Positions 4,791 through 63,694 of a stretch of DNA of 64,000 bases are shown here, one piece after another (positions within the stretch are counted from its first letter, which is position 1; every line of letters starts with the position of its first letter). Below the pieces are notes generated by a model. It was given only the letters and a program-made list of their open reading frames with translations. It was not told the DNA's origin and did no database searches. The stretch comes from Aequorivita sublithincola DSM 14238 (GTDB lineage: Bacteria > Bacteroidota > Bacteroidia > Flavobacteriales > Flavobacteriaceae), in assembly GCF_000265385.1 (NCBI RefSeq), contig NC_018013.1, forward strand, positions 2,135,001 to 2,199,000, written 5' to 3'. Made by a program: the position numbers and the translations under genes.

Positions 4791-5021
4791 ATGTTGCAAG
4801 CAGTATATTCATTGCGGTATTATCTTGAAAAACGTGGTTTTTACGTGTCTTCGCGCTTAGCAGATAGATTAGGAATGCGCGCTAAAAGCGTTCGTCTTTT
4901 TTTTATCTATGTTTCCTTCGCCACCTTGGGCGTTGGCTTCGCACTTTATCTTACGATGGCTTTTTTGTTAAAACTTAAAGATCTAGTAAACACCAAACGA
5001 ACCTCTGTTTTTGATTTATGA
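4791..5021 (+). CDS. PspC-domain membrane protein
   Basis: 76 aa. Residues 17-55 match the PspC domain (YVSSRLADRLGMRAKSVRLF followed by one hydrophobic helix). In proteobacteria PspC senses envelope stress; stand-alone short PspC proteins in Bacteroidota have no proven role. The stop codon overlaps the start of the potassium-channel gene by four bases (ATGA), which points to translational coupling and one operon. Confidence 0.85.
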   Translation: MLQAVYSLRYYLEKRGFYVSSRLADRLGMRAKSVRLFFIYVSFATLGVGFALYLTMAFLLKLKDLVNTKRTSVFDL

Positions 5022-6025
5022 AGCAACTCTTCAGCTCTAAAATTACGGTAGCAATCCTGCTCTTGCTTTTAGTGTTTATGACGGGCGTTGTTGGGTTTCA
5101 TTTTTTTTCACAATACTCTTGGATAGACGCTTTTTATATGACGGTAATCACCGTAACTACTGTAGGTTATGGTGAAGTGATGCCATTGAGTGCGCAGGAA
5201 AAAATATTTGTTTCGCTTCTCATCATTTCCAGTATCTTTATCGTTGCTTACGCCATTTCGGTAATTACAGAGTATATTTTAAGTAAAAATTTAGGCGATT
5301 TAAGACATAAAAAAGTGCAAAAAAAATTAGATTCCATGCAAGATCACGTCATAATTTGCGGTTATGGCAGAAACGGAAAACAGGCGGCCCAAAAGTTATT
5401 AGCTTACAACCGTAACTATGTTATTATTGAAAAAAACCAAGAAGTTATTAATCATTATTCAGATGAAAATAATTTATTTGTTTTAGGAAATGCTATTGAA
5501 GACGAAATTTTACTGAAATCTGGAATAGAAAGAGCTTCAACCCTAATTTGTGCCACCCCCAATGATGCGGACAATCTATTCATCGTGCTTTCTGCGCGGC
5601 AAATGAATAAAAACCTAAAAATAATAAGTCGTGCCAGTGAAGAGACGAGCTACAAAAAAATGAAACTCGCAGGCGCAGACAACGTGATTATGCCAGATAA
5701 AATTGGCGGCGACCATATGGCTTCATTGGTTGTTGTTCCAGACTTGGTTGAGTTTTTAGATAATCTGACTGTTGCTGGACAACAAGACAGCATCAATGTT
5801 GAACAAATATCCTTTGAAAAAATGTGTCCGCATGGACGGGAGCAAGCCATAAAAGATCTTGATGTGCGGAATAAAACGGGCTGTTCCATTATTGGGTATC
5901 GTTCGCCAACAGGCGAATATATTGTTAATCCGGAACCTTCACTTATACTTCAAAAAAATTCAAAACTAATATTGATTGGGCGTCCAGAACAAATTGAAAG
6001 CCTTAAGAAAGAGTACGGAGTTTAA
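5018..6025 (+). CDS. potassium channel with cytoplasmic RCK (TrkA-N/TrkA-C) domain
   Basis: 335 aa. Two membrane helices (about 9-29 and 63-85) flank a pore loop with the selectivity filter TVGYGE at residues 48-53. A TrkA-N Rossmann domain follows, with nucleotide-binding GYGRNG at 115-120 and the acidic strand end VIIEKN; a TrkA-C ligand-binding domain occupies roughly 240-335. This is the layout of MthK-type ligand-gated potassium channels, a tetramer in the inner membrane. It overlaps the PspC gene by four bases. Confidence 0.92.
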   Translation: MKQLFSSKITVAILLLLLVFMTGVVGFHFFSQYSWIDAFYMTVITVTTVGYGEVMPLSAQEKIFVSLLIISSIFIVAYAISVITEYILSKNLGDLRHKKVQKKLDSMQDHVIICGYGRNGKQAAQKLLAYNRNYVIIEKNQEVINHYSDENNLFVLGNAIEDEILLKSGIERASTLICATPNDADNLFIVLSARQMNKNLKIISRASEETSYKKMKLAGADNVIMPDKIGGDHMASLVVVPDLVEFLDNLTVAGQQDSINVEQISFEKMCPHGREQAIKDLDVRNKTGCSIIGYRSPTGEYIVNPEPSLILQKNSKLILIGRPEQIESLKKEYGV

Positions 6026-6120
6026 GAAAAAGTTAACAAATTTCTGTTCGATTCTTCGAGATTCTTAACTTTTTTGGACATCTTGCTTTTTTTTTCAATA
6101 TTAAACTTGATAAATCCGCC

Positions 6121-7782
6121 ATGAAGAAATTTCTTCTTTCACTAATTACATTTCTAATTCCAATCTTCACTTTCGCCCAAGAACAAAAAAGTCTTGGAGA
6201 TAAAATTGATGGTGCGTTTGCTAAATACACAACCCCAATCGTAGATTTAATTTTTTATCCTGTAACAATAGCGGGAAAGGATATGCCGATTGTAATTATT
6301 CTTTTGTTATTGGGAGCACTTTTTTTCACACTGTATTTCAATGGTGTTAACTTTAGATATTTAAAAATTTGTATAAAAACAGCTGCTGGAAAATACGATG
6401 AACTCGACCATCATGTTCCTGCGGATCAAGAAATTGAGGTAAAGGATGGTAAAATTCACGATACGGTTCATTTAACTGGAGAAGTTCCTGGTGAGGTTAC
6501 TCACTTTCAAGCATTAACGGCTTCCTTGTCCGCAACGGTAGGACTGGGAAATATTGCTAGTGTTGCTGTTGCCATTGCCATTGGCGGTCCAGGAGCAACT
6601 ATATGGATGATTGTAGCTGGACTATTGGGAATGGCTTCAAAATTTGTGGAATGTACACTAGGTGTAAAATATAGAGAAGTAGATGCAGACGGGAAAACCT
6701 ATGGAGGGCCAATGTATTACCTAGCCAGTGGTCTTAAGGAAATGGGAATGGCCGGCTTTGGTAAATTTTTGGCTGTCTTTTTTGCTGTTATGTGCATTGG
6801 AGGATCCTTTGGTGGGGGAAATATGTTTCAATCCAATCAAGCAGCTGCTCAGTTAACACAATTAATGGATTGGGATGGACCAAACGCTGGTCTTTATGTA
6901 GGATTGGTTATGGCCGTTGTTGTTGGTTTGGTAATTATAGGTGGAATTAAAAGAATAGGTTCCGTAACCGAAAAAGTGGTTCCTTTTATGGCCATTGTTT
7001 ATGTGGGAGCTGGTTTAATAATTATAGGAATCAATTACGATATGATTCCTTTTGCGGCCAATCAAATATGGGAAGGCGCTACAAACCCAAATGCTGCTTT
7101 TGGTGGTGTTATTGGAGTACTAATTGTTGGCTTTCAACGTGCGGCGTTTTCTAATGAAGCAGGAGTTGGTTCTGCAGCAATTGCGCACTCCGCAGTGAAA
7201 ACACGTTATCCAGCCAGTGAAGGCTTAACCGCATTGTTGGGACCTTTTGTAGATACTGTTATTATATGTACTATGACAGCTATAGTAATTATTATAACCA
7301 ATGCGAAGCACAATTTATTTACTTATGGAAATCTAGATGCTGCAAGTAATGTTATGCTCAATGCAACCAATCAACCAATCAACGGAGTAGATTTAACCTC
7401 TGTGGCTTTTAATTCTGCCATTCCAAACTTTTCTATAGTACTTACTATAGCGGTTATCTTGTTTGCTATATCTACTATGATTTCTTGGTCCTACTATGGG
7501 CTTCAATCTTGGAAGTTTCTTTTTGGAAAAGGAAAGGTTTCAGATATTACATATAAAGTATTGTTTTTAATATTTTTGGTTGTAGGAGCTTCTTCAAGCT
7601 TGGGTGCTGTAATCGGTTTTTCCGATGCTATGATTTTTGCGATGGTTTTTCCAAACATTATTGGTTTGGTATTGCTTTCTCCTAAAGTGAAAAAAGAATT
7701 GAGAAAATATCTGAACGCAATTAAAATAAATAAAATGGATGCTACCATTCATAAAGAAAGTAAAGAAGTGAAAGAAATTTAA
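6121..7782 (+). CDS. sodium:alanine/glycine symporter (AGCS family), copy 1
   Basis: 553 aa. The product starts MKKFLLSLITFLIPIFTFAQ, a signal-peptide-like lead unusual for bacterial AGCS proteins but shared with its neighbour. About ten hydrophobic segments follow. Family motifs include GLGNIASVAVAIAIGGPGAT, SKFVECTLGVKYRE, GGPMYYL, and SNEAGVGSAAIAHSA. AGCS proteins import alanine or glycine with Na+ or H+. The gene is a tandem paralogue of 8050-9747: the proteins align throughout, and the roughly 90 nt upstream regions are also similar (shared TTAACAAATTT and CATCTTGCTT). A hairpin terminator follows its stop codon. Confidence 0.93.
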   Translation: MKKFLLSLITFLIPIFTFAQEQKSLGDKIDGAFAKYTTPIVDLIFYPVTIAGKDMPIVIILLLLGALFFTLYFNGVNFRYLKICIKTAAGKYDELDHHVPADQEIEVKDGKIHDTVHLTGEVPGEVTHFQALTASLSATVGLGNIASVAVAIAIGGPGATIWMIVAGLLGMASKFVECTLGVKYREVDADGKTYGGPMYYLASGLKEMGMAGFGKFLAVFFAVMCIGGSFGGGNMFQSNQAAAQLTQLMDWDGPNAGLYVGLVMAVVVGLVIIGGIKRIGSVTEKVVPFMAIVYVGAGLIIIGINYDMIPFAANQIWEGATNPNAAFGGVIGVLIVGFQRAAFSNEAGVGSAAIAHSAVKTRYPASEGLTALLGPFVDTVIICTMTAIVIIITNAKHNLFTYGNLDAASNVMLNATNQPINGVDLTSVAFNSAIPNFSIVLTIAVILFAISTMISWSYYGLQSWKFLFGKGKVSDITYKVLFLIFLVVGASSSLGAVIGFSDAMIFAMVFPNIIGLVLLSPKVKKELRKYLNAIKINKMDATIHKESKEVKEI

Positions 7783-7793
7783 GAACAGTTTAC

Positions 7794-7880
7794 ATTAATA
7801 TAAAATCCCACTTCACGTTCCCTGAACAAGAACGAAGTGGGATTTTTATTTTTATTGCACATTTTTTCTTTGTTGTGTAG
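7794..7880 (+). pseudogene. relic of the 5' end of the helix-hairpin-helix gene
   Basis: Twelve nt after the stop of symporter copy 1, codons 7794-7877 read INIKSHFTFPEQERSGIF and then a hydrophobic run, ending in TAG at 7878-7880. The intact gene at 9759 begins MNIKSHFTFNKQQRSGIL plus a hydrophobic run. The DNA aligns without gaps for about 60 nt, including 23 identical bases. The start codon has become ATT, and the frame stops after 28 codons. The relic marks the boundary of the symporter tandem duplication: the duplicated unit carried the beginning of the next gene. Confidence 0.85.
7802..7850 (+). terminator. hairpin terminator of symporter copy 1, formed from the gene relic
   Basis: The arms are AAAATCCCACTTCACGTTC (7802-7820) and GAACGAAGTGGGATTTT (7830-7846). 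They pair over 17 bp with a two-base bulge, enclose a 9-nt loop, and are followed by TTATTTTTATT. The arms lie inside the relic of the HhH gene start; the intact gene has a similar but weaker inverted repeat at 9773-9812. Confidence 0.85.
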
Positions 7881-8049
7881 ATTTTTCTCAGGAATCGGAA
7901 TGCACTGAACGAATTAAAAGTTATAAAAAGGACAAATGGAGTTTAGGAAAGCATTAACAAATTTTTGAACAATTTTTTGATATTTAGTTTTTTTTAAGCA
8001 TCTTGCTTCGTTTTTATTTTAAAAACCAATTCATCCTTAAAACTCCACT

Positions 8050-9747
8050 ATGAAGAAATATCTTCTTTCGCTATTCACATTTTTAATTCCATTACTAAAT
8101 TTTGCACAAGAAGCACCTCCAGAGATGGGGATTGATGAACAAATAAATCAAGCTTTTGCACCGGTTTCCAATTTTTTCTCGAGTGTTGTTTTCTTTCAAA
8201 TAGGTGGGATTCCCTTTGTTTTGATACTTCTTGTAGTTAGTGCTACATTTTTCACATTATATTTTGGCTTTCCTAATTTCAGATATTTTTGGCGAGCAAT
8301 ACAAACTGTTCGTGGTAAATATGAAGACATAGAAAATCATGGTGCAAAAGTTTTGTACGGTGAAGGTGGTATTGCTCAAGGTGTAGATATGAATAAGGTT
8401 GACGACTTTCATGCACACGTGGAAGCACTTGATGATGACCTAGCAATAGATGGCGATATTGTAGATACCATTCGTGATGAAAGTTCAGCTGGAGAAGTTA
8501 GTCACTTTCAAGCATTGGCCACAGCTGTTTCTGGAACTGTAGGTAATGGTAATATTGCTGGAGTTGCTTTAGCCATTGCACTTGGTGGTCCTGGAGCAAC
8601 CTTTTGGATGGTTGTTTGTGGTCTTTTAGGTATGTCCACCAAATTTGTAGAATGTACTCTTGGAGTTCAGTATAGAGATGTGGGCCCAGATGGAACCGTT
8701 TATGGAGGACCCATGTATTATCTAAGTAAAGGTTTAAAAGAAAAAGGCTTCGCAACTTTGGGTAAAATTACAGCCGTTTTATTTGCAATTTTTTGTATAG
8801 GCGGATCATTTGGTGGTGGTAATGCAGCACAATCTAACCAAGCAACTATTGTATTAAAAGATTTATTTGACCTTCAGAGTACTGCTGCTGGATTTTGGAT
8901 TGGCGTATTGCTAGCAATTTTGGTTGGTATTATTATTATTGGAGGTATAAAAAGGATAGCACAAGTAACAGAAAAGGTAGTTCCCTTTATGGCAATTATG
9001 TATGTAGTAGCTTGTTTGTATATAATTCTCAGTAATTTTAGTTTAATTGATGATGCTTTTAGTTTAATTTTTAGAGAGGCATTTAACCCAAGTGCAATAG
9101 GAGTAGGAACTTTAATTGGAGTATTATTAGTAGGTTTTAAAAGAGCTGCATTTTCTAACGAAGCAGGTGCAGGTTCAGCATCCATTGCTCACTCTGCCGT
9201 GCGCACAAAGTATTCTGCAAGTGAAGGCTTAGTTGCACTTTTAGAACCTTTTATTGATACCGTAGTGATCTGCACAATGACTGCTCTAGTTATTATTATT
9301 TTTAATATGGGAGGGTTCTTTGAGTATGGAGATGTAACCGGCCACGGTGTTGCTATTATTGATGGTGTTTCGTATGAAGGTTCTGGAATTACTGCCCAAG
9401 CATTTCACGAGTTCATTCCATATTCAAACATTTTCTTAACCATAGCCGTATTCCTTTTTGCGGTATCTACAATGATTTCTTGGTCTTATTATGGACTTCA
9501 ATCTTGGAAATATCTCTTCGGAAGAGGAAAAACGATGGACTTAGTTTATAAAGTTCTTTTTTGTATCTTTATTATAATTGGTGCCGCTGCAAATATGAAA
9601 TCAATCTGGGACTTCTCTGATGCGATGATTTTTGCTATGATTTTCCCAAACATGGTTGGATTATTCTTCCTTTTCCCTGTGGTGAAAAAGCAGTTAAAAA
9701 GATATCTTGACGCAATAAAACTGAAAAGGGACGCCATATCGGAATAA
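8050..9747 (+). CDS. sodium:alanine/glycine symporter (AGCS family), copy 2
   Basis: 565 aa, paralogue of the preceding gene. It starts MKKYLLSLFTFLIPLLNFAQ, then the same segments as copy 1: GNGNIAGVALAIALGGPGAT, TKFVECTLGVQYRD, GGPMYYL and SNEAGAGSASIAHSA. Compared with copy 1 it has about 25 extra residues in the region between the first membrane helix and the first core motif (residues about 90-140), rich in Asp and Glu. The stop codon is only 11 nt before the HhH gene, without a terminator, so the two are probably cotranscribed. Different substrates or affinities for the two copies are plausible but not shown. Confidence 0.93.
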   Translation: MKKYLLSLFTFLIPLLNFAQEAPPEMGIDEQINQAFAPVSNFFSSVVFFQIGGIPFVLILLVVSATFFTLYFGFPNFRYFWRAIQTVRGKYEDIENHGAKVLYGEGGIAQGVDMNKVDDFHAHVEALDDDLAIDGDIVDTIRDESSAGEVSHFQALATAVSGTVGNGNIAGVALAIALGGPGATFWMVVCGLLGMSTKFVECTLGVQYRDVGPDGTVYGGPMYYLSKGLKEKGFATLGKITAVLFAIFCIGGSFGGGNAAQSNQATIVLKDLFDLQSTAAGFWIGVLLAILVGIIIIGGIKRIAQVTEKVVPFMAIMYVVACLYIILSNFSLIDDAFSLIFREAFNPSAIGVGTLIGVLLVGFKRAAFSNEAGAGSASIAHSAVRTKYSASEGLVALLEPFIDTVVICTMTALVIIIFNMGGFFEYGDVTGHGVAIIDGVSYEGSGITAQAFHEFIPYSNIFLTIAVFLFAVSTMISWSYYGLQSWKYLFGRGKTMDLVYKVLFCIFIIIGAAANMKSIWDFSDAMIFAMIFPNMVGLFFLFPVVKKQLKRYLDAIKLKRDAISE

Positions 9748-9758
9748 ACTTTTAAAAG

Positions 9759-10643
9759 ATGAATATAAAATCCCACTTCACGTTCAATAAGCAACAACGG
9801 AGTGGGATTTTACTTTTGTTGCTACTCATCATCTCATTGCTGTGCGTGTATTGGTTTGTAAATTTTTCTAAAGAAGATACTTTTGACAACTCTTCTGCGG
9901 AAATTGTTTCGATGCAAAAGGAATTGGATTCCCTTCGCCTAATTGAAATAGAAAAACGGAAACCGAAGAAATATCTCTTCAACCCAAACTTCATCACAGA
10001 TTACAAAGGCTACACTTTAGGAATGTCTAATGAAGAAATTGACCGTTTACTTCAATATAGAAAAGAAGACAAATGGATTAATTCTGCTGCGGATTTTAAG
10101 AAGGTTACAGGCGTCTCAGATTTATTATTGAATGAACTGAGTCCATATTTCAAATTTCCAGTTTGGATCACGAATCCAAAACCGAAAACCGATTTTAAAG
10201 ATTTTAAAAGTGAAAAAGGGTTTACTGAAAAGTCTTTCGTCCAAAAAATTGATTTAAACAAAGCTACCAAAGAAGAACTGCAACAAGTTAGCGGCATCGG
10301 CGAAGCATTGAGCAAACGTATTATTTCCGATCGCGACAAGTTAGGAGGATTTTCAAGTGATGTTGAATTGAATAGTATTTACGGTCTAAACCCAGAAGTT
10401 GTGCAGCGAACCTTAAATCTTTTCACTGTAAAAACGCCGAAACAAATAGCCAAAATCAATGTGAATAAGGCTTCGGCCTCAGATATTTCAACCATTCCAG
10501 GGGTGTCTTTTGAAATGGCAAAGAAAATCTGGGAATACAGAAGACTTCACGAAAAAGTGAGCAACATTCAAGAACTGGACAAAATTGAAGGAATGACGGA
10601 AAGAAAGTTACAGCTAATTCAGTTATATTTGTCCGTTGAGTAA
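9759..10643 (+). CDS. ComEA-like helix-hairpin-helix protein with N-terminal membrane anchor
   Basis: 294 aa. After SHFTFNKQQRSG a single membrane helix spans about residues 17-32. The rest is outside or periplasmic and holds helix-hairpin-helix units: one divergent copy around 85-135, then IDLNKATKEELQQVSGIGEA (about 165-185) and INVNKASASDISTIPGVSFE (about 228-248). These resemble ComEA, the DNA receptor of natural transformation, though here three HhH units are present and no other competence gene is in the window. The arrangement AGCS symporter - HhH gene is the unit that was partly duplicated. Confidence 0.87.
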   Translation: MNIKSHFTFNKQQRSGILLLLLLIISLLCVYWFVNFSKEDTFDNSSAEIVSMQKELDSLRLIEIEKRKPKKYLFNPNFITDYKGYTLGMSNEEIDRLLQYRKEDKWINSAADFKKVTGVSDLLLNELSPYFKFPVWITNPKPKTDFKDFKSEKGFTEKSFVQKIDLNKATKEELQQVSGIGEALSKRIISDRDKLGGFSSDVELNSIYGLNPEVVQRTLNLFTVKTPKQIAKINVNKASASDISTIPGVSFEMAKKIWEYRRLHEKVSNIQELDKIEGMTERKLQLIQLYLSVE

Positions 10644-10707
10644 GGTGTAAAATCGCCTTCTTGGTGTCAAAACCGTTTCAAATAACGATCCAATAAAAAG
10701 AAATACA

Positions 10708-11871
10708 ATGAGTTTATATTTTACAGAAGAACACGATTTTTTCAGAAAAAGTTTTCAGGATTTTCTTCAAAAGGAAGTAGTCCCACATATTGATAAGTGG
10801 GAAAAAACTGGAACCATAGACCGTTTTATTTGGGAGAAATTTGGCGAGATGGGCTATTTCGGAATCTATCAACCCGAAGCCTACGGCGGACTAGATTTAG
10901 ATCTTTTTTACACCGTAATTTTTCTGGAAGAACTTCAAAAAGTGAACAGTGGCGGTTTTGCAGCAGCGATGTGGGCTCACGCTTATCTTGCAATGACGCA
11001 TCTTAAAAAAGAAGCCAACAACGAACAAAAAGAAAAATATTTAGCACCAAGTATTACAGGCGAAAAAATAGGCTGTCTGTGTATTACCGAACCTTTTGGA
11101 GGAAGCGATGTATCTGGAATGCGAACCACCGCAGTAAAAAAGGGAGATAGCTACATTTTGAATGGTTCCAAAACTTTTATTACAAACGGAATTTATAGCG
11201 ACTATTTAATAGTTGCCGCCAAAACTGCGCCAGAACTAGGTAACAAAGGCATCAGTATATTTGTAATGGATCGCGACACCAAAGGAATTACTTCAAACAA
11301 GTTAGACAAACTAGGCTGGAGAGCAAGCGACACAGGAGAAATAGCTTTCGATAACGTCGAAATCCCACTTGGAAATTTATTGGGCGAAGAGAACGCTGGT
11401 TTTCCATATATAATGCAGCATTTTGCTTTAGAAAGGCTCATTATGGGAATCAATGCACACGCTCGCAGCGAATTTGCTTTGGAGTATACCATTCAGTATA
11501 TGAAAGATCGTTTTGCCTTCGGAAAAAGTATTTCAAAATTTCAAGCCTTACGTCATCGAGTTGCCCAACTTGCAAGTGAAATTGAGGTTTGTAAAACATT
11601 TAATTATGTAACTGCAAAACGTTTAAACGACGGTGAATATGTGGTAAAAGAAGCTACAATGAGCAAGCTAATTTCTACCAAAGTTTCTGATGAAGTAATG
11701 ACTGAATGTCTTCAATTTTTAGGAGGTTATGGTTATATGGAAGATTATCCATTGGCACGGTTGATGCGTGATAGCAGACTTGGCCCGATTGGTGGTGGTA
11801 CTTCAGAAATTCTTCGTGAGATTATTGCCAAAATGGTCATTGAAGGAAAAGAGTATAAACCAGCAACCTAA
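10708..11871 (+). CDS. acyl-CoA dehydrogenase, isovaleryl/long-chain type
   Basis: 387 aa, full-length for the family. The FAD and substrate motifs CITEPFGGSDVSGMRT (125-140), LNGSKTFITNG (151-161) and FGKSISKFQALRH are present. The C-terminal motif reads GGGTSEILREI with Gly where short/medium-chain enzymes carry the catalytic Glu. Instead E242 in ALERLIMG matches the position used by isovaleryl-CoA and long-chain dehydrogenases, so I infer E242 as the base. The enzyme should introduce the alpha,beta double bond in an acyl-CoA, in beta-oxidation or branched-chain amino acid breakdown. It stands alone between the HhH gene and a regulatory-domain protein. Confidence 0.93.
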   Translation: MSLYFTEEHDFFRKSFQDFLQKEVVPHIDKWEKTGTIDRFIWEKFGEMGYFGIYQPEAYGGLDLDLFYTVIFLEELQKVNSGGFAAAMWAHAYLAMTHLKKEANNEQKEKYLAPSITGEKIGCLCITEPFGGSDVSGMRTTAVKKGDSYILNGSKTFITNGIYSDYLIVAAKTAPELGNKGISIFVMDRDTKGITSNKLDKLGWRASDTGEIAFDNVEIPLGNLLGEENAGFPYIMQHFALERLIMGINAHARSEFALEYTIQYMKDRFAFGKSISKFQALRHRVAQLASEIEVCKTFNYVTAKRLNDGEYVVKEATMSKLISTKVSDEVMTECLQFLGGYGYMEDYPLARLMRDSRLGPIGGGTSEILREIIAKMVIEGKEYKPAT

Positions 11872-61243: not shown

Positions 61244-61912
61244 TCAAGCCATCATATATCGAAAAAGGAATTTTTCAAAAAACCAATAACTCAATTTTAG
61301 AAACAAACCAAAAAAAATGGTGAACAACCACGCCTGAAGGTTGTCAATTGGGTTGGTAAGTATTGCGAAAATGTCCATTAAAAGTCCAAAAGGGGTATGA
61401 AGCAAATCCCAAGAATTCCATCGTAAAACCCTGCCTAGATACATTCCAAAACTCACCATAAAAGGAAGGATTGCCATAAACATTGAAACCAGTTTAATAC
61501 TGAAATTTTTTAAAAGTACTTCCTCAATATCTCTAATTGAAAAAATATAGTAGGTGATGCCCGTAATTGCAAAAACGGAAATCATTAAACCGTCAAAGCC
61601 AATCCATCCAGAAGGACTTAAGCGAAGGTGAATAAAATCTGTCAGTAAATACGGTGCATTTGGAAGAAAAAGTATCCAAACTATTAATAAAAAATATGGT
61701 TTATGTTTTGTCAATTGCTGTTTCGTTTTAATATAAGTGGAAATGAAAAAAGGAATCATCGCCAAAAATAAATTCCACGACAGAAATAGGTAGAAGAAGG
61801 AATAGGTAATTTTCATTCGAATAGTAAGAAGGAAAATACTCAAAACTGTCAACAAAAAAAGTGGAAATAATATGTTGAAACGATCAAAGAGAAATGTTTT
61901 TATTTTTTGCAT
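61244..61912 (-). CDS. DUF1361 membrane protein
   Basis: 222 aa with about seven hydrophobic segments. The family motif LFLPNAPYLLTDFIHL and the SWDLLHTPFGLLMD region mark DUF1361, whose function is unknown. It overlaps the upstream DUF2809 gene by 13 bases, so the two are one operon. Confidence 0.88.
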   Translation of the reverse strand: MQKIKTFLFDRFNILFPLFLLTVLSIFLLTIRMKITYSFFYLFLSWNLFLAMIPFFISTYIKTKQQLTKHKPYFLLIVWILFLPNAPYLLTDFIHLRLSPSGWIGFDGLMISVFAITGITYYIFSIRDIEEVLLKNFSIKLVSMFMAILPFMVSFGMYLGRVLRWNSWDLLHTPFGLLMDIFAILTNPIDNLQAWLFTIFFGLFLKLSYWFFEKFLFRYMMA

Positions 61913-62277
61913 TCTTTAGTGATAAGATTTTCGATTAATAAAATAAGGAGAAAGCCAATGAAATATGCTACAAGATCCCAAACGTCAAACACGGAACCGA
62001 TAATGGTTAAAAGTACTTTTGATTGTACTTTTTGTATTTCCGCTAGCTTGAAATATTGTAAAATTTCCACAAAAAAGGCAAAAGTTAAAACTGAAATAGC
62101 AATTTTGAAAACGTTTTTTCTGATGAAAATTTTTAAGAAGCAATACAGAAGCACTATTACCAAAACATCACCCAAAAAACCTCTTATAAAATAGCTAAAG
62201 TGAAAATAAGCGATTGCGAATTCAATTAAAAGTACGATTACGAATGTGCTGAAATAATTTCTGTTAAAATAAAGCAT
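61900..62277 (-). CDS. DUF2809 membrane protein
   Basis: 125 aa from the ATG at 62275-62277 (MLYFNRNYFSTFVIVLLIEF). A reading from 62391 would translate the upstream hairpin and overlap creD, so it is rejected. About four membrane helices; IRGFLGDVLVIVLLYC and GSVFDVWDLVAYFIG are the DUF2809 core. Function unknown. It overlaps DUF1361. Confidence 0.88.
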   Translation of the reverse strand: MLYFNRNYFSTFVIVLLIEFAIAYFHFSYFIRGFLGDVLVIVLLYCFLKIFIRKNVFKIAISVLTFAFFVEILQYFKLAEIQKVQSKVLLTIIGSVFDVWDLVAYFIGFLLILLIENLITKECKK

Positions 62278-62294
62278 ACTGAACGTTTTGGATG

Positions 62295-62329
62295 AAAACC
62301 TCACAGGTTTTAAAAATCTGTGAGGTTTT
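62295..62329 (-). terminator. hairpin between creD and the DUF2809 gene
   Basis: AAAACCTCACAG pairs perfectly with CTGTGAGGTTTT around 11 bases. On the minus strand it follows creD by 15 nt and ends in TTTT. T residues follow on the plus strand as well. Confidence 0.8.
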
Positions 62330-62344
62330 TTACTAGCACTGTTA

Positions 62345-63694
62345 TTAGCTTTCATTATTCCAGTCAATTCGTCTTGAAGCGAACATAACAATCGCCAAAA
62401 TCAAGAACAGGCCAATGCTGCCAACCAAAAGTGCATAATTTTCCAGCTGAATAATCACGTAAATAAATCCATAAAGTGAAGCCAACGAACCGCAGATAAG
62501 CAATGGAAACTTAAACCCTTTCAGAATAGCTCGGGAATAAACTGTTATCAACGCAAGTACCGAAAACGCGGCAATAGCATAGGCCTTAAAGAAATTACTA
62601 TGTTCCGAAATTGAAATGAGCAGTGTATAAAACATTACCAAAGCCAAACCAATCATCACATATTGAAACGGATGTATGTAAATTTTGCTAACCAATTGTA
62701 TCAACAAAAACACAAGCAGCGTTAGCCCAATAACCATAAATCCGTATTTGGCGGTGCGTTCGCTCTTTTGATATTCATCCACGGGAATGATAAGTTTCGT
62801 CCCAAAAGCCGAAGCCGAAAGGTCTGGAAGATACCCGAAAAACGATTGCTCAAATTGCCGGTTAATTTGTAGCACCCGCCAAGTGGCCGTAAAACCGTCT
62901 TTGCTTATTTCCTTGTTGGTGTCTTCTGGCAAAAAGTTTCCATCAAAACTAGGGGAGTGCCAGTTGGATTTCATCGTGGCATCAGTTTCTTTTCCAATAG
63001 GTAGAAATTTTAAACTTTCACTACCGTTTATTTTTAAGTCGAAGGAAAAAGGAAGTGGTTTTGTAAAAAATTCTTTAGCGTCGGGAATGTTGTTACTCTG
63101 AATAGTATTTAAATATTCTGTGGAATATTGCGGCGTCATGGAAAGTGCTTCAGAATCCAGCTTCACGACTGGCGTGGTTTTAATACCCTTCAAATTTGAA
63201 GTTTTCAGAATAACGGTGGCTTTTTCCCAAAGTATATTTTCATCGGCAATATCAGTATTTGAGAAATCAATTTCAGGAAAATTACCTTTCACATTAATTT
63301 CTGCGGAATAAACTACAGATTCGTAAATACTTCGGTTTAAAGGTTTAGTGTCCACCTTTGAGGCAATGTTCAGTTTATCTGGGAAGAAGTAAGCATTCTC
63401 AACGGTTTCCTTCGTTTTTGTGTAATACGAATTGCTTTTTTCGTTAAAGATCTTTTCTTCGGAAATCACTTTATAAGGAATTTTCACTATAGGGCCTGAA
63501 AGCAAAACCTCGTTGCCCCACTTTTCGTTTATTTCTCGGATAACTTCTTCTTGCCGGTACGCTCTCTCATTTATGAGCGATTTCACGAATTCCAACGGAA
63601 TCAATAATACCAATAATAAAAACCCGACCACCAACATTCTTGCGGTGATGGAATTACGCATCCAATTGCTGAATTTACTTTTTTTCTGTTCCAT
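62345..63694 (-). CDS. creD: CreD family inner-membrane protein
   Basis: 449 aa. N-terminal helix (about 18-37), a large periplasmic domain with SGPIVKIPYKVI and FGYLPDLSASAFGTKLIIPV, and five C-terminal helices from about residue 318. This is the normal CreD layout. CreD is tied to envelope integrity and colicin E2 tolerance in E. coli. A winged-helix regulator gene lies upstream on the same strand, the usual partner in Bacteroidota. Confidence 0.93.
   Translation of the reverse strand: MEQKKSKFSNWMRNSITARMLVVGFLLLVLLIPLEFVKSLINERAYRQEEVIREINEKWGNEVLLSGPIVKIPYKVISEEKIFNEKSNSYYTKTKETVENAYFFPDKLNIASKVDTKPLNRSIYESVVYSAEINVKGNFPEIDFSNTDIADENILWEKATVILKTSNLKGIKTTPVVKLDSEALSMTPQYSTEYLNTIQSNNIPDAKEFFTKPLPFSFDLKINGSESLKFLPIGKETDATMKSNWHSPSFDGNFLPEDTNKEISKDGFTATWRVLQINRQFEQSFFGYLPDLSASAFGTKLIIPVDEYQKSERTAKYGFMVIGLTLLVFLLIQLVSKIYIHPFQYVMIGLALVMFYTLLISISEHSNFFKAYAIAAFSVLALITVYSRAILKGFKFPLLICGSLASLYGFIYVIIQLENYALLVGSIGLFLILAIVMFASRRIDWNNES

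Follow-up and report, generated by a model that had tools for sequence, protein, structure and literature searches.

A probable intrinsic terminator of an amino-acid transporter gene, written into the first codons of the following gene in Flavobacteriaceae and kept in a dead duplicate

Terminators inside coding regions and attenuators close to start codons are known kinds of element, and compensatory evolution of terminator stems is known as well. In the Escherichia coli reporter series described in PMC4824070, translation cost a terminator placed 30 bp after the AUG only about 10% of its efficiency, and trailing ribosomes repressed terminators close past a stop codon, with maximum efficiency beyond about 30 bp; at 17-18 bp from the stop, two series gave values of about 0.12 and 0.8. 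Within the Flavobacteria, a transcriptome study of Flavobacterium psychrophilum makes use of terminator predictions (PMC9723704). The element considered here lies in a window of 64,000 nucleotides from Aequorivita sublithincola DSM 14238 (RefSeq assembly GCF_000265385.1, contig NC_018013.1, positions 2,135,001 to 2,199,000 of the forward strand). In this window two symporter genes of the AgcS type, S1 and S2, precede a gene for a protein with HhH domains (the HhH gene), and the spacer after S1 holds a relic of the start of a second HhH copy.

The reading favored here, to which we give a probability of roughly 0.82, is that an intrinsic (Rho-independent) terminator of an amino-acid transporter gene is dual-coded in the start of the next gene, that this arrangement is widespread in Flavobacteriaceae, and that the copy in the dead duplicate has been retained. 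The terminator of the transporter gene, usually one for an AgcS-type Na+/alanine symporter, would lie within the first 15-18 codons of the HhH gene. RNA polymerase leaving the transporter gene would cross the HhH start codon, and some 20-28 nt past the transporter stop the nascent RNA would fold a stem made by the codons for KSH(F) and R(S/N)GI. A T-rich tract adjoining the stem (typically ATT TTT TTA TTG) would then cause many transcripts to end at HhH codons 17-20, and HhH would be made from the read-through fraction. In Aequorivita, a divergent S1 with its own downstream HhH copy would have come to precede the S2-HhH pair; the extra HhH copy would have decayed, its first 50 nt being retained because they still ended S1 transcripts. 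Termination at the T tract, its efficiency and the dependence of HhH on read-through are deduced from sequence.

The main sample comprises 161 HhH starts, 26 from Aequorivita and 135 from elsewhere. For it, 127 further genomes were fetched; the HhH search matched 271 of 299 genomes, and the 127 loci used are mostly the best-scoring ones, with some rows skipped (G and L numbers are our handles for genomes and loci). Two genomes with a split HhH gene (G006, G009) were left out beforehand, and L066, from another family (f11), was included. A stem built from the codons around KSHF...R(S/N)GI and followed by the T-rich tract was called a hairpin when at least 10 of 12 register pairs were kept, which is the case in 153 of the 161 starts: all 26 intact Aequorivita starts and 127 of the 135 outside the genus (152 of 160 when L066 is excluded). 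Among named loci, which overlap the main sample, 77 of 79 carry the hairpin, including records of Altibacter, Ulvibacter, Winogradskyella, Lacinutrix and Algibacter, and one further locus of the 80 is without the start. Relatives with a single symporter in the fetched locus carry the same hairpin in their intact HhH start, as do most sampled genera; judged by this distribution, the hairpin is ancestral to the relic and was already in the coding start.

Outside the family, G037 (f3) has a perfect version by eye. The hairpin was not found in an f10 locus or in an f2 locus with a nearby symporter (L195, L198), and five f7 loci in which no symporter was found (L316, L317, L319-L321) keep 5-7 of the 12 pairs. 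Several order-level loci ended too far from the HhH start for judgement. In the f11 loci L310-L315 the pairing is weaker and rich in G-U (8-11 pairs), and the codons that follow hold a different hairpin. As a separate observation on this family, L310, L311, L313, L314, L315 and L066 show a possible in-gene hairpin, AAGGAGC...GCTCCTT, written in KKERNGILLL codons where HhH lies downstream of a symporter.

Several features of the HhH start go beyond what its protein would require. The mean minimum free energy (MFE) is -16.1 kcal/mol, whereas synonymous recodings of these peptides average -4.7, and 136 of the 161 starts beat all 400 of their recodings (codon usage was taken from the fetched locus, which offered 82-83 codons in the poorest rows seen). 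The Ser codon is TCC in 145 of 161 starts (pooled background 11%) and the Gly codon is GGG in 153 (background 10.6%). By parsimony on a 160-row HhH tree, from which L193 was left out, the 12 pairs underwent 53 double compensatory changes, against 1-14 when the partner is slid by 1-3 nt, together with 97 one-sided changes that keep the pair; 1850 of 1932 alignment cells are paired. Some of these compensations alter amino acids: L152 combines CTT with AAA (KSLF, RKG), changing residues on both sides, L188 combines CGC with AGC, and in L176 (CGT with AAC) and L119 (TCT with GAG, Gly to Glu) one or both sides are changed. The T tract is likewise constrained beyond codon usage, with ATT at 142 of 152 Ile codons (background 59.5%), TTA or TTG at 148 of 154 Leu at motif codon 16, and more T than the average recoding in 146 of 161 starts. 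Since synonymous controls, compensatory changes and the TCC and GGG bias agree, they show in this comparison that selection acts on the nucleotides of the hairpin.

In form and position the element resembles a terminator. A stable stem is directly followed by a T-rich tract, although its loop of about 19 nt is longer than typical; it lies just downstream of the gene it would end, in a context-dependent manner; and its pairing is under selection. Our own terminator scan found the motif region terminator-like in 121 of 152 rows, compared with a background of 12 of 805 coding windows. From the transporter stop to the start of the stem the median distance is 23 nt, with quartiles of 21 and 28 nt (157 rows). 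This geometry, early in HhH and 20-28 nt past a stop, fits the E. coli reporter data, by which partial repression by ribosomes at that distance from the transporter stop is possible.

Contextual evidence comes from the link to the upstream transporter. In a 158-row table of terminators, which leaves out L062, L127 and L176 (a misread gap, or no alanine symporter found) and counts L104 and L124 as in-gene by a shifted register, the in-gene hairpin is lost in 6 rows, at five or six places in the tree. An intergenic terminator before the HhH ATG is present in 5 of these 6 rows but in only 4 of the other 152 (Fisher 1e-6), and when the comparison is confined to the 32 rows with spacers of 24-400 nt, in 5 of 5 losers and 4 of 27 others (Fisher 6e-4). 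A second sample of 20 more divergent loci extends the association: the hairpin is present in 10 of 10 with a symporter upstream and in 2 of 2 with an NSS-like transporter upstream (L303, L304). Two loci of the first sample (L127, L176) also belong with the latter, and all four have 12 of 12 pairs; their upstream gene we take, by eye, to be an NSS-type transporter with a small MetS-like partner. Conversely, the hairpin is found in 0 of the 8 Flavobacteriaceae genomes of the second sample in which HhH has no co-directional transporter upstream; seven of these have a divergently read permease-like gene and one lies behind a PspC-like gene, as named by eye. The Fisher counts for transporter against none are 166/6/0/8, with L300 scored as hairpin-less despite 10 weak register pairs (MFE -0.5). 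L077, L083 and L129 have both an intergenic terminator and the in-gene hairpin. Two of them, L083 and L129, fall in the tree with L093 and L114, where the in-gene hairpin has been lost; this grouping suggests that a new terminator was gained before the old one was lost.

A number of observations weigh against this account. The long loop departs from textbook terminators, and a generic terminator scan, allowing loops of 3-8 nt only, listed neither the relic nor the intact hairpin. Parsimony also counts 77 stem-breaking changes, and some of the 53 compensatory changes fall in hairpin-less rows (L093, L102, L192). At motif codon 15, Leu shows no preference for T, and the T-rich tract also encodes a hydrophobic stretch. 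One genome (L192) has neither an in-gene nor an intergenic terminator, four have both kinds, spacers are mostly too short for any intergenic terminator, and the hairpin is present even with the transporter stop at a distance of 96-278 nt (L113, L126, L153). The terminator scan was loosened (longer loop, one mismatch) after terminators had been seen by eye, the stricter version catching 3 of the 5 losers with spacers, and the p values are too small as species are not independent.

The locus in A. sublithincola, whose 3.52-Mb genome is a single contig, adds a case in which the coding role has gone. The gene order is a K+ channel-like gene, S1, spacer, S2, the HhH gene and an acyl-CoA dehydrogenase, with the following features in window coordinates:

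6033 to 6105, plus strand: upstream (promoter) region of S1, similar to that of S2 by local alignment
6121 to 7782, plus strand: symporter S1, AgcS / Na_Ala_symp family (PF01235, 4.4e-118; TIGR00835 above cut-off)
7794 to 7880, plus strand: relic of the start of a second HhH copy, with ATG changed to ATT and the frame closing at TAG (by homology; about 410 nt at the same position in G003)
7802 to 7846, plus strand: relic hairpin, proposed terminator of S1, 17 pairs, beginning 19 nt past the S1 stop, with a T-rich tail to about 7856
7954 to 8023, plus strand: upstream (promoter) region of S2, by local alignment
8050 to 9747, plus strand: symporter S2, AgcS / Na_Ala_symp family (PF01235, 7.1e-125; TIGR00835 above cut-off)
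9759 to 10643, plus strand: intact HhH gene, with an N-terminal hydrophobic segment (by eye) and HHH_3 domains (PF12836, 4.2e-36)
9766 to 9812, plus strand: dual-coded hairpin in HhH codons 3-18, proposed terminator of S2, with a T-rich tract to about 9822

The original prediction, made from the letters of the window, held that the spacer after S1 matches the HhH start, that the relic lost its ATG and pairs over 17 bp with a T-rich tail, and that the regions upstream of S1 and S2 are alike; all of this is borne out. Aligned without gaps from 7794 and 9759 onward, relic and intact gene share 23 of 24, 27 of 30, 38 of 45 and 50 of 60 positions, the change of ATG to ATT being the sole mismatch in the first 27 bases, and the relic frame stays open as far as the TAG at 7878-7880. 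The two upstream regions align with a local score of 49, whereas the best of 500 single-base shuffles reached 31. The relic folds with 13 + 4 = 17 pairs at -19.8 kcal/mol (z -6.2) and the intact start at -18.5 (z -6.2); in tighter windows the values are 17 pairs and -19.3 for the relic and 16 pairs and -17.3 for the intact start. A relaxed pattern for the hairpin occurs at exactly two places in the genome, the relic and the intact HhH start, and a mobile or generic terminator repeat is thereby ruled out.

The relic has the marks of a pseudogene, namely HhH homology and broken coding capacity. An HhH protein search of 59 relatives found a broken HhH piece between the two symporters of G003 (apparently Aequorivita antarctica) while the piece in G012 is shorter. 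In G003 roughly the first 410 nt of HhH, with stops, are recognizable, at 72-80% identity to the HhH genes of the genus and 76.6% to its own intact copy; because G003 retains so much of HhH at the same position, the homology of the window's relic is not a matter of chance. A second copy of a unit of promoter, symporter and start of the next gene, the decay of its HhH part and the hairpin left behind therefore stand as originally proposed, except that the unit copied exceeded the 60 nt of the first alignment. In all six S1+S2 genomes, that of the window included, a relic hairpin of 15-19 pairs lies 15-19 nt past the S1 stop, with folding energies of -16.2 to -23.3 kcal/mol. In G003 the stem is identical to the intact copy at 24 of 24 bases, compared with 254 of 353 further downstream, so the stem is the part that was preserved. 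The claim that the intact copy pairs less well is true by a small margin in the window (-19.3 against -17.3) and of 4 of the 6 genomes overall (L041, -23.3 against -17.8; L048, -21.1 against -17.3), but the relic is the weaker of the two in L033 and L038.

Two further loci bear on the fate of such copies. In L049 (G021), a two-symporter genome that contains S1 but no recognizable HhH relic, an A+T-rich 11-bp hairpin with a T-rich tail lies just past the S1 stop, in the spacer between the symporters (about 6288-6457 of the oriented locus), and is perhaps a replacement terminator. In L193 (G193:C3:23547-24386), HhH is interrupted by three internal stops (one TAG, two TAA) while all 12 of 12 pairs of the hairpin at its start persist; this may be another, independent case of a dead HhH that retains the terminator.

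The history of the symporters differs from that originally proposed, a duplication of one symporter. Among 27 relatives of the same genus, which include the apparent A. antarctica (G003) and A. todarodis (G011), five have S1 and S2 (G003, G010, G012, G018, G027), G021 has S1 plus a third symporter type, and the remaining ones have one symporter in the fetched locus. In the symporter tree S1, S2 and the third type form one group each, and every group joins symporters from other genera: S1 joins G029 (on a long branch), S2 joins G033 and G035, and the third type joins G032 and G030 (with weak support). Since each group joins other genera, the symporter types look older than Aequorivita. A recent tandem duplication of a single symporter is not supported, as the tree does not make S1 and S2 each other's closest relatives. 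Unlike the symporters, the HhH relic is close to HhH genes of the genus. The locus is better read as the addition of a divergent symporter together with a downstream HhH copy, which is the simplest account. The donor is unplaced, as is the G003 relic, which sits on a long branch without firm placement in the Aequorivita HhH tree. The six S1+S2 genomes do not form one clade in the full-length HhH tree, where 2 changes are required, so a single origin of the two-symporter order is not established. Seen across the genus, symporters of three old types (S1, S2 and the third) swap or join at one site, with HhH constant.

Other explanations of the hairpin differ in which role they take to be primary. 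Were the palindrome only a by-product of a conserved peptide, the good conservation of KSHFxFxxxQRxGI in 11 aligned proteins would be expected; but the hairpin is lost in synonymous recodings, the uncommon codons TCC and GGG are nearly fixed, residues co-vary so that pairs persist, and non-coding relics retain the stem, and this explanation is refuted, with next to no probability left to it. Scarcely more probable is the history told by the original prediction, in which an ordinary coding start was duplicated and became a terminator later by gaining pairs. The stronger relic stem in 4 of 6 genomes would agree with it, and a later strengthening of the relic stem is possible, but the weaker relics of L033 and L038 run the other way, and as an account of origin it is refuted by the stem already present in the intact starts of 26 of 26 Aequorivita and 127 of 135 others. 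The prediction itself had named single-symporter relatives with the same hairpin before an unrelated gene as contrary evidence, and what was found comes near to this: the hairpin pre-exists in single-symporter relatives, within the intact HhH start, and the relic merely kept it. A hairpin that controls translation rather than transcription would hide the HhH start, so that only ribosomes arriving from the transporter gene translate HhH. In 144 of 161 rows the stem does begin 1, 3 or 4 codons past the closest in-frame ATG, and the symporter stop commonly lies about 10 nt before the HhH start. Such a role would not explain why relics with a dead HhH retain both stem and T-rich tail, why intergenic terminators match most hairpin losses, why the T tract itself is constrained, or why 8 of 8 genomes without a co-directional upstream transporter have no hairpin, and it is improbable.

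Regulated read-through is compatible with a terminator dual-coded in the HhH start, and differs from it in that the element would not be constitutive but would act as a genuine attenuator, responding to ribosome position or to an amino acid. A terminator at the HhH start leaves little spacer room for an HhH promoter in most rows, and the narrow stop-to-stem spacing (quartiles 21, 23 and 28 nt) falls where the E. coli distance curve is still rising (PMC4824070). Against this, no gene would be left for the S1 relic to regulate, and an embedded HhH promoter may exist; on balance the attenuator is a minority view, well short of even odds. A search for an HhH promoter with a Bacteroidetes-type motif gave 3 of 161 starts and 65 of 644 interior windows; as the regions upstream of symporters, taken as positive control, gave 0 of 41, these counts carry no weight. 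A slightly less doubtful but still tentative idea is that of a ribosome-gated valve: in its operon form HhH would have no promoter of its own and would be made only when a ribosome, ending the transporter or starting HhH, trails the polymerase closely enough to block the stem, and the HhH N-terminus would be shaped by the RNA, paired substitutions included, across the family.

For the genes themselves, both symporters pass the cut-off of TIGR00835 (AgcS amino acid carrier, 272.65 bits), with 370.8 bits for S1 and 384.3 for S2. The HhH protein scores 81.4 bits against the ComEA model TIGR01259, below its curated cut-off of 152.35, and is not assigned to that family. An Rfam search of 5000-11000 gave no family beyond one chance-level match (E 0.89). 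At the 3′ end of the Aequorivita HhH gene (codons 281-294, about 10599-10643 of the window), synonymous conservation is 0.956 over 6 codon columns, compared with 0.814 at the HhH start (9 columns) and a gene mean of 0.599; given this excess over the start, a second overlapping element may lie there. A scan for in-gene terminators in 40 open reading frames (ORFs) of the window gave one further long-stem candidate and one weak one. The former lies at about 61899-62355 on the minus strand, where the predicted first 61 nt of the ORF hold a long terminator-like hairpin directly past the preceding gene; the start codon may be mis-called.

If the terminator reading is right, this is a natural case in which one stretch of DNA is apparently both the terminator of one gene and the coding start of the next throughout a bacterial family, and paired amino-acid changes preserve an RNA stem. 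The Aequorivita relics would separate the two roles, as coding decays and the stem remains. Terminators in the first codons of downstream genes may escape scans restricted to intergenic DNA and short loops, and the locus offers a testable system for the coexistence of translation start and intrinsic termination in Bacteroidota.

Among the best-ranked titles of a mostly open literature, there is no report of a terminator encoded by the opening codons of a downstream gene, family-wide and with paired amino-acid changes, but several described systems come close. The ORF-internal and 5′ untranslated region 3′ ends of E. coli in PMC7815308 are alike in that RNA 3′ ends lie inside or just before ORFs; there they are described as premature ends or internal small RNAs of a gene, whereas the proposed role of the element here is to end the upstream gene. 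The premature terminators and attenuators of PMC2965389, some at most 15 nt from start codons, share the border with a gene start and a possible joint control of transcription and translation, but they were sought before the start codon, and the word Bacteroidetes is absent from that text. Intrinsic terminators of Bacillus cereus likewise show compensatory stem changes (PMC5381666); here some of these also alter protein residues. Also close are the terminators of PMC4824070, placed within the initial 100 bp of a coding region, where a hairpin and T tract soon after the AUG or an upstream stop were functional in the reporter test; those described there are engineered on E. coli plasmids, while the element here is natural, written in codons and common to many genera.

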